Positions 5,580-7,301 of a stretch of DNA of 15,596 nt are shown in pieces; positions within the stretch are counted from its first letter, which is position 1, and every line of letters starts with the position of its first letter. Source of the DNA: Myxococcota bacterium (GTDB lineage: Bacteria > Myxococcota_C > UBA6777); NCBI GenBank assembly GCA_023150835.1, contig JAKLKB010000148.1:1-15596 (forward strand). The letters run 5' to 3'. Below the pieces are notes generated by a model. It saw only the letters and a list, made by a program, of their open reading frames with translations, searched no databases and was not told the DNA's origin. The position numbers and the translations under genes were made by a program.

Positions 5580-5610
5580 TACGATCTCCTTCTTTCTCTT
5601 TTCTGGTGTT

Positions 5611-5655
5611 TGTGGGGTTCCACCCCACACCCCGCAAGGGACCGATGGCCCCTTG
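5611..5655 (+). terminator. Double hairpin after eno
   Basis: TGTGGGGT (5611-5618) pairs perfectly with ACCCCACA (5622-5629) around TCC. A second stem follows, CAAGGG (5635-5640) with CCCTTG (5650-5655). The first stem lies about 31 bases after the eno stop and follows a pyrimidine-rich tract. There is no classical U-tract. GGGGTTCCACCCCA recurs at 15461-15474 after the giant gene, so this is also a member of a dispersed intergenic hairpin family that may serve as a terminator. Confidence 0.5.
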
Positions 5656-5748
5656 ACCCCGTATCGGCGAAACAATCATCGTTTTTCAAACCAACGGCTC
5701 TCTCGCTTGAACGTGTCGCGAACACGGGGTGTTGTCTCGTGTCTATCC
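5656..5748. other. Spacer without recognised features
   Basis: Between the eno hairpins and the 43-bp repeat array I see only a weak stem, AACAC and GTGTT, within AACACGGGGTGTT. There is no gene, RNA gene or convincing promoter. Confidence 0.4.
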
Positions 5749-6047
5749 GGTGGGGGATAGCATACCAAACGCCATCTCATACGAGATCCGCAGGGAGCGT
5801 GATCGTAAAACGTAGGGGCAGCCCCCTGTGGCTGCCCAAGGATAGGGCGTCCTCGCGCTATCCTTCGATCATAGATCACTCGGATATCGTATCAGATCGC
5901 TTTTTCGATGGGGGGTAGCATACAAAACGCGATCTCAGATCGCTTTTTCGATGGGGGGTGGCATACAAAACGCTATCTCAGATCGCTTTTTCGATGGGGG
6001 GTGGCATACAAAACGCTATCTCAGATCGCTTTTCGATGGGGGGTGGC
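5749..6047 (+). repeat. 43-bp tandem repeat array, five copies, one interrupted
   Basis: Units of exactly 43 bases begin at CAGATCGC at 5893, 5936, 5979 and 6022. They contain the segments CTTTTTCGATGGGG and GGCATACAAAACG. The fourth copy lost one T and stops after GGGGGGTGGC (6047). A further, more diverged copy lies at 5749-5779 and is separated from the rest by the 112-bp element at 5780-5891. The unit junction forms an inverted repeat, perfect in one place: GCGATCTCAGATCGC at 5929-5943. There are no unique spacers, so this is not a CRISPR. It ends about 70 bases before the start of the 264-residue gene and could carry operator-like sites for it. Confidence 0.85.
5780..5891 (-). mobile_element. 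112-bp miniature inverted-repeat element with TCA target duplication
   Basis: The ends are imperfect inverted repeats: TACGAGATCCG (5780-5790) and CGGATATCGTA (5881-5891), matching at 10 of 11 positions. TCA lies directly on both sides (5777-5779 and 5892-5894). Removing the element and one TCA restores the 43-bp unit (GCCATC-TCA-GATCGC), which is strong internal evidence for insertion. The core is a perfect 8-bp stem, GGGCAGCC (5816-5823) with GGCTGCCC (5830-5837), and outer parts also pair (GTGATC with GATCAC). It is too short to encode protein, so it would depend on a transposase elsewhere. The family recurs as four copies at 6927-7292. Confidence 0.75.
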
Positions 6048-6911: not shown

Positions 6912-6926
6912 CCCACCCTCTCGTCA

Positions 6927-7004
6927 TACGATATCTCGGAGATGCGGCAGTCCTATCCTTGGGCAGCCACGGGGGGCTGCCCCTACATCTTGGCGGATTT
7001 CGTA
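6927..7004 (+). mobile_element. 78-bp miniature element, tandem copy 1
   Basis: It starts TACGATATCTCGG and ends CGGATTTCGTA, imperfect terminal inverted repeats of the same type as in the 112-bp element. TCA lies on each side (6924-6926, 7005-7007). The core stem is GGGCAGCC (6961-6968) with GGCTGCCC (6975-6982), and AGATG with CATCT extend the fold. It is the opposite orientation to the copy at 5780-5891. Confidence 0.7.
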
Positions 7005-7022
7005 TCACCCACCCTCTCGTCA

Positions 7023-7100
7023 TACGATATCTCGGAGATGCGGCAGTCCTATCCTCGGGCAGCCACGGGGGGCTGCCCCTACATCTTGGCGGATTTCGTA
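7023..7100 (+). mobile_element. 78-bp miniature element, tandem copy 2
   Basis: Same structure as copy 1, with CCTCGGGCAG where the other copies have CCTTGGGCAG. It is flanked by TCA at 7020-7022 and 7101-7103. Confidence 0.7.
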
Positions 7101-7118
7101 TCACCCACCCTCTCGTCA

Positions 7119-7196
7119 TGCGATATCTCGGAGATGCGGCAGTCCTATCCTTGGGCAGCCACGGGGGGCTGCCCCTACATCTTGGCGGATTTCGTA
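7119..7196 (+). mobile_element. 78-bp miniature element, tandem copy 3
   Basis: Same structure as copy 1, except that its left end reads TGCGATATC in place of TACGATATC. Confidence 0.7.
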
Positions 7197-7214
7197 TCAC
7201 CCACCCTCTCGTCA

Positions 7215-7292
7215 CACGATATCTCGGAGATGCGGCAGTCCTATCCTTGGGCAGCCACGGGGGGCTGCCCCTACATCTTGGCGGATTTCGTA
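7215..7292 (+). mobile_element. 78-bp miniature element, tandem copy 4
   Basis: Same structure as copy 1. The left flank reads CA-CACGATATC and the right flank CCA instead of TCA, so both terminal junctions carry one transition. Confidence 0.65.
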
Positions 7293-7301
7293 CCACCCAC
7301 C

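Follow-up and report, generated by a model that had tools for sequence, protein, structure and literature searches.

An inserted element within a 43-bp repeat array

The window, by which we mean the whole stretch of 15,596 nucleotides analysed here, is contig C91 of an assembly of 7.56 Mb in 239 contigs that is 93% complete. It contains an array of a 43-bp repeat with a 112-bp element inside the first unit, and another member of the same family further along. The features, all on the forward strand, are:

5751..6047, forward: array of the 43-bp repeat, the target, with its first unit split by the element (direct reading; the array of the sister species G001 is without the element)
5777..5779, forward: left target-site duplication TCA, of the TNA class (direct reading; genome-wide TNA rule)
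5780..5790, forward: left terminal inverted repeat TACGAGATCCG (direct reading; genome-wide end counts)
5780..5891, forward: 112-bp non-autonomous element (MITE) (direct reading; genome copies)
5812..5837, forward: GTAG-headed REP-type hairpin core GTAGGGGCAGCCCCCTGTGGCTGCCC (GTAG REP definition from PMC2817692, PMC3733652)
5840..5863, forward: second internal imperfect hairpin GGATAG...CTATCC, a predicted single-strand fold (minimum-energy fold, focal copy only)
5881..5891, forward: right terminal inverted repeat CGGATATCGTA (direct reading; genome-wide end counts)
5892..5894, forward: right target-site duplication TCA (direct reading)
6927..7004, forward: second family member, 78 bp, with TCA on both sides (direct reading)

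The two ends of the element, TACGAGATCCG...CGGATATCGTA, are 11-base terminal inverted repeats with one mismatch, and there is no room between them for a transposase gene. An earlier note on this DNA had described a 112-bp element with such ends and TCA on either side, and we read it from the window exactly as claimed (TCA 5777-5779, element 5780-5891, TCA 5892-5894). Units of the 43-bp repeat start at 5892, 5935 and 5978. With the element removed and one TCA kept, the flanks read ...GCATACCAAACGCCATC-TCA-GATCGCTTTTTCGATGGGG, and these 117 nt match the neighbouring 43-bp units at 92-93%.

The second family member lies in a 96-bp tandem array at ~6912-7294, where each unit consists of the 78-bp member with TCA on both sides and 18 bp of flank. 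There the insertion preceded the array, which is the opposite order to that at the focal site. This 96-bp array is missing at the G001 locus, where ~1 kb of other sequence is found instead. Upstream of the 43-bp array, positions 5604-5729 belong to a different dispersed repeat (GGGGTTCCACCCCACACCCCGCAAGGGA...GACCCCGTATCGGCG), which is very abundant and present in both sister genomes.

Copies across the genome

A search of the genome for the exact end TACGADATCCG gives 407 hits on the forward and 406 on the reverse strand, compared with 0 and 2 for the reversed control pattern, so the frequency of the end is far above chance. A BLAST-like search with the segment (773 candidates) gave at least 51 matches, nearly all of them within the element's own query positions. 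The nearest copy among the matches listed, C18:36963-37073, is 99% identical to the focal element, and a copy this similar argues for recent activity.

For statistics we used a sample of 1,545,787 bases (1.55 Mb, ~20% of the genome), which is non-random as it comes from the larger contigs. It holds 170 exact ends, and the genome-to-sample ratio of ends (4.78) is in agreement with the ratio of lengths (4.89). The earlier note had proposed a search for inverted TACGADATCCG pairs 60-150 bp apart, and the sample yielded 94 of these, with a length of 112 or 113 bp in 65. A profile built from the 94 copies found 201 unique matches, or 1.21% of the sampled bases, and zero matches when the same profile was run on reversed sequence. 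Of these matches 120 are near full length and 74 are end-to-end copies. Projected from the 20% sample, the genome would have ~980 copies or fragments, ~1.2% of its DNA; the projection includes fragments. The family consensus is 113 nt long, and the terminal repeats are conserved across copies, as in a MITE. Seventy of the 94 copies lie outside ORFs and 9 inside, in a sample of which 86% consists of ORFs of at least 150 aa.

Position 6 of the terminal repeat is unusual. The left and right ends are unlike at this position in 70 of the 74 end-to-end copies, and adjacent positions are seldom unlike. We considered active avoidance of pairing and rejected it, since the pattern is mostly explained by descent from an asymmetric ancestor with one T end and one A/G end. 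The asymmetry probably goes back to a single ancestor of this kind, but A/G combinations also outnumber A/A plus G/G.

Longer versions of the element also occur. At L052:16195-16563 and L088:11036-11401 the element is 366-369 bp and its core is broken by another dispersed repeat (CACCCCAGCCCTCCCCCGTGAACAGGGG...). We rejected these composites as candidates for an autonomous element, as their cargo is that repeat and no transposase.

Target-site duplication

T-N-A stands on both immediate flanks of 56 of the 94 pairs, and in 40 of the 56 the two trinucleotides are identical (binomial P ~1.5e-12). By type, the 40 are TGA 11, TAA 11, TCA 10 and TTA 8. When we shuffled flanks among the copies 2000 times, the number of identical trinucleotides averaged 14.1 and reached at most 26, compared with the 41 observed. 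No flank pair (zero of 94) has 4 or more identical bases, and there is little consensus in the bases beyond the three flanking ones. The target rule is thus TNA, with N about evenly A, C, G or T, and the TCA in the window is one instance of it.

The earlier note had suggested testing each copy for TCA on both sides. A 3-bp duplication does hold genome-wide, but it is one of TNA and not of TCA, which accounts for 10 of the 40, so a TCA-only test misses most copies. The note had also said that flanks without a 3-bp duplication would count against mobility. This is not what the identical TNA pairs show, though a perfect duplication is absent in 53 of the 94 paired copies, which may reflect decay, tandem copies, chimeras or mispairing.

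Empty sites and the order of events

In the sister species G001, from the same genus, the orthologous locus lies downstream of eno on C202, at 91-97% identity. The 43-bp array is there too, shorter by one unit; its sequence is GCATACCAAAAGCCATC-TGA-GATCGCTTTTCCGATGGGG, with the element absent. The joined flanks of the window align with this empty site along their full 117 nt, gap-free and at 89.7% identity. The claim that deleting the element and one TCA rebuilds the 43-bp unit is therefore borne out twice, by the neighbouring units and by the sister species. Since the array is present in G001 and the element is absent, the array came first and the element later, as the earlier note had it; nor is the segment always found inside the 43-bp unit in relatives, which the note had named as an outcome that would speak against it. 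Elsewhere in the sister species the target repeat also forms a longer array, of about seven units (L203:3225-3523, on C294 of G001).

A second comparison comes from the genome of the window itself. At C139:28523-28635 a copy interrupts another dispersed repeat, unrelated to the 43-bp one, with an exact 3-bp TTA duplication. That repeat is uninterrupted at dozens of other sites, and the joined flanks of the copy continue through the junction. Further loci differ between the two species. A cluster of several copies at ~C201:75,250-77,050 is missing in G001, in which the corresponding flanks are 7 bp apart, and the element is also absent there at the loci corresponding to C349 and C471, though these do not give clean empty sites. 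The mobility of the palindromic repeat, which was the main claim of the earlier note, is supported by the G001 empty site, the genome-wide TNA duplication and the filled and empty pair at C139.

The REP core

The core of the element, GTAGGGGCAGCCCCCTGTGGCTGCCC, has a GTAG head followed by a GC-rich palindrome, which are the defining features of a REP (PMC2817692, PMC3733652), and like REPs it is an imperfect palindrome of 20-40 nt present in many copies. Close relatives of the hairpin without the MITE ends are present in genomes of other lineages. The minimum-energy fold predicted for the whole element is stable. Covariation of the tested base pairs was not clearly above controls, with pairs formed in 94% of cells, so we make no claim at the level of RNA.

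There is a RAYT-like gene at C113:53266-54030 (L211:13266-14030). It matches Pfam Y1_Tnp (PF01797) at E=1.4e-6 and NCBIfam REP_Tyr_transpos at E=9e-16, the latter under the family cut-off. Its coding sequence includes an in-frame tandem run of REPs (GQAQIGQAQI...), and the REP in it, GTAGGGGCAGGCCCCTGTGCCTGCCC, is one compensatory pair swap away from the MITE core, so it is related and not identical. A 45-bp array adjoins the gene and has the look of a MITE copy that has decayed and expanded internally.

Proposed mechanism and alternatives

We are confident that the element belongs to a high-copy MITE family moved in trans by a DDE-type transposase, most likely of the IS1031 group (IS5 family) or one with the same TNA rule. 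The transposase would cut at the TACGADATCCG ends and paste the element into the pre-existing 43-bp repeat at a TNA trinucleotide, in this case TCA, and gap repair of the 3-base stagger would leave TCA on either side. The REP was probably captured by the element, or the element formed around the REP, and the two would then have been amplified together. We infer that the chemistry is cut-and-paste, that the element is mobilised in trans and to which group the transposase belongs; for the group, the evidence is the target duplication. For the IS1031 group the rule given is an exclusive 3-bp repeat of the form TNA (PMC12016507), and the duplication we see is of this kind. The group differs in having a transposase, a length of ~860 bp and, in ISLrh, a 17-bp end GAACCTGTCTAGTATCT, compared with no transposase, 112 bp and TACGADATCCG in our element.

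The segment sits inside a tandem array, tandem arrays rearrange, and the sister array differs by one unit, all of which could fit an immobile structured spacer or a product of rearrangement of the 43-bp array. We give this next to no credence, because ~980 related copies stand in unrelated contexts with exact TNA duplications and empty sites; the orthologous empty site and the dispersed copies refute it. Since the two terminal repeats each end in TA, one could also read TA...TA as the duplication of an IS630/Tc1-like element that targets TA, with TA wrongly counted in the terminal repeat. Under such a rule both flanking trinucleotides should survive in the empty site, but the empty sites hold one TNA and no TATNA, so we regard this reading too as refuted and its chances as slight in the extreme.

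A REP/RAYT system could instead have moved the element through its GTAG core by HUH single-strand transposition, with the terminal repeats only extending the fold. The core is indeed a GTAG REP-type hairpin, and the C113 gene with its in-frame REPs is a RAYT-like gene in the same genome. However, the 3-bp TNA duplication directly abuts the terminal repeats rather than the boundaries of the REP, which strongly disfavours this explanation, as IS200/IS605-type HUH transposition is not known to make a target duplication. In addition, G001 has the family and no Y1 transposase was detected there. We consider this route very unlikely.

Search for the transposase

The earlier note had proposed looking for a transposase gene with the same terminal repeats, and here the outcome was negative both in the family searches and in the 20% sample. 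Searches with PF01609, PF13586, PF13340, PF13359 and PF01797 found no gene bearing the element's ends. PF01609 has five loci in the genome, including an IS982-type and an IS4-type, and none has an intact TACGA end pair around the gene; in G001 it has no match. DUF4096 and DDE_Tnp_4 have no match in either genome. We looked for an insertion sequence with these ends by scanning for terminal repeats separated by 400-4000 bp and flanked by matching TNA, and found none in the 1.55 Mb (~20% of the genome) and other loci, as the pairs at this distance were only spans between separate elements or across other genes. Neither a pattern scan of viral contigs nor a distant blastn search of plasmids and phages gave a hit.

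The only IS5-like remnant found is a decayed element at C238:23143-23562 (L201:3143-3562) that has GAGGGTGTTTGCGAAAAAGTG ends with TTA on both sides and adjoins a head-to-tail pair of the MITE. Its GAG..-type end is unlike the element's terminal repeat. The transposase partner may be missing from our data or the family may be an orphan, and we find these equally possible. A missing partner is possible because both assemblies are incomplete drafts (93% and 86%) and repeats break assemblies.

Distribution and comparison with known elements

G001 has 101 and 106 exact ends. Three genomes from the same taxonomic family but other genera contain 9-15 each, and the element itself has no match in them. 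As far as tested, the MITE family is confined to the genus.

The element is a MITE: it is under ~500 bp, has no transposase gene, has conserved terminal inverted repeats and a fixed 3-bp duplication, and its insertion is visible from empty sites. MITEs usually, though not necessarily, share their terminal repeats with an autonomous element; no such partner was found in the family searches or the 20% sample. Its notable feature is copy number. Like the prokaryotic MITEs Correia/NEMIS, Nezha, Chunjie, QMITE2 and ERIC, it is short, non-coding, bounded by terminal inverted repeats with a target duplication, and mostly intergenic with many truncated copies (PMC10969869); it differs from them in its ends and target rule and in that no parental insertion sequence was found. 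ERIC has 711 copies in Photorhabdus luminescens and Chunjie 38 copies with conserved ends (PMC10969869). Our projected ~980 is higher than the 711, although the counts were made by different methods and ours includes fragments.

With GTAG REPs and RAYT systems the element has the GTAG head and a GC-rich palindrome in common, but its mobile unit is set by the outer terminal repeats and the 3-bp duplication, while REPs alone are 20-40 bp. A MITE with an internal REP has precedent, as QMITE2 of Coxiella burnetii has a GTAG repetitive extragenic palindrome inside (PMC10969869). QMITE2 differs from our element in having 7-9 bp direct repeats, 23-29 bp terminal repeats and 78 copies.

This is a clear example of a MITE in bacteria for which filled and empty sites can be compared inside one genome as well as between two sister species. 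Its projected copy number is above the figures in a recent review (PMC10969869), and no recognisable mover was found. It should be useful for studying non-autonomous amplification, perhaps outliving the transposase, and the embedding of REP hairpins in transposons. The basic picture of MITE biology is unchanged. A more ambitious reading, which we think doubtful, is a two-layer element, a TIR/TNA MITE with a RAYT-type REP as cargo, whose core would be spread by both a DDE (double-strand) and an HUH (single-strand) system and which would be among the largest MITE families described from bacteria. If this were true, the GTAG hairpin of a second TIR family would make REP capture recurrent.

This second MITE-like family has TAGGACTTACGCAGTT ends and is represented by L052:5229-5344, which is missing at the G001 locus, and 16 other copies in the sample. 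Its members are 116 or ~170 bp, often with 5-6 bp direct repeats (TAGGACTTACGC ends), and the 116-bp form also has a GTAG hairpin core.
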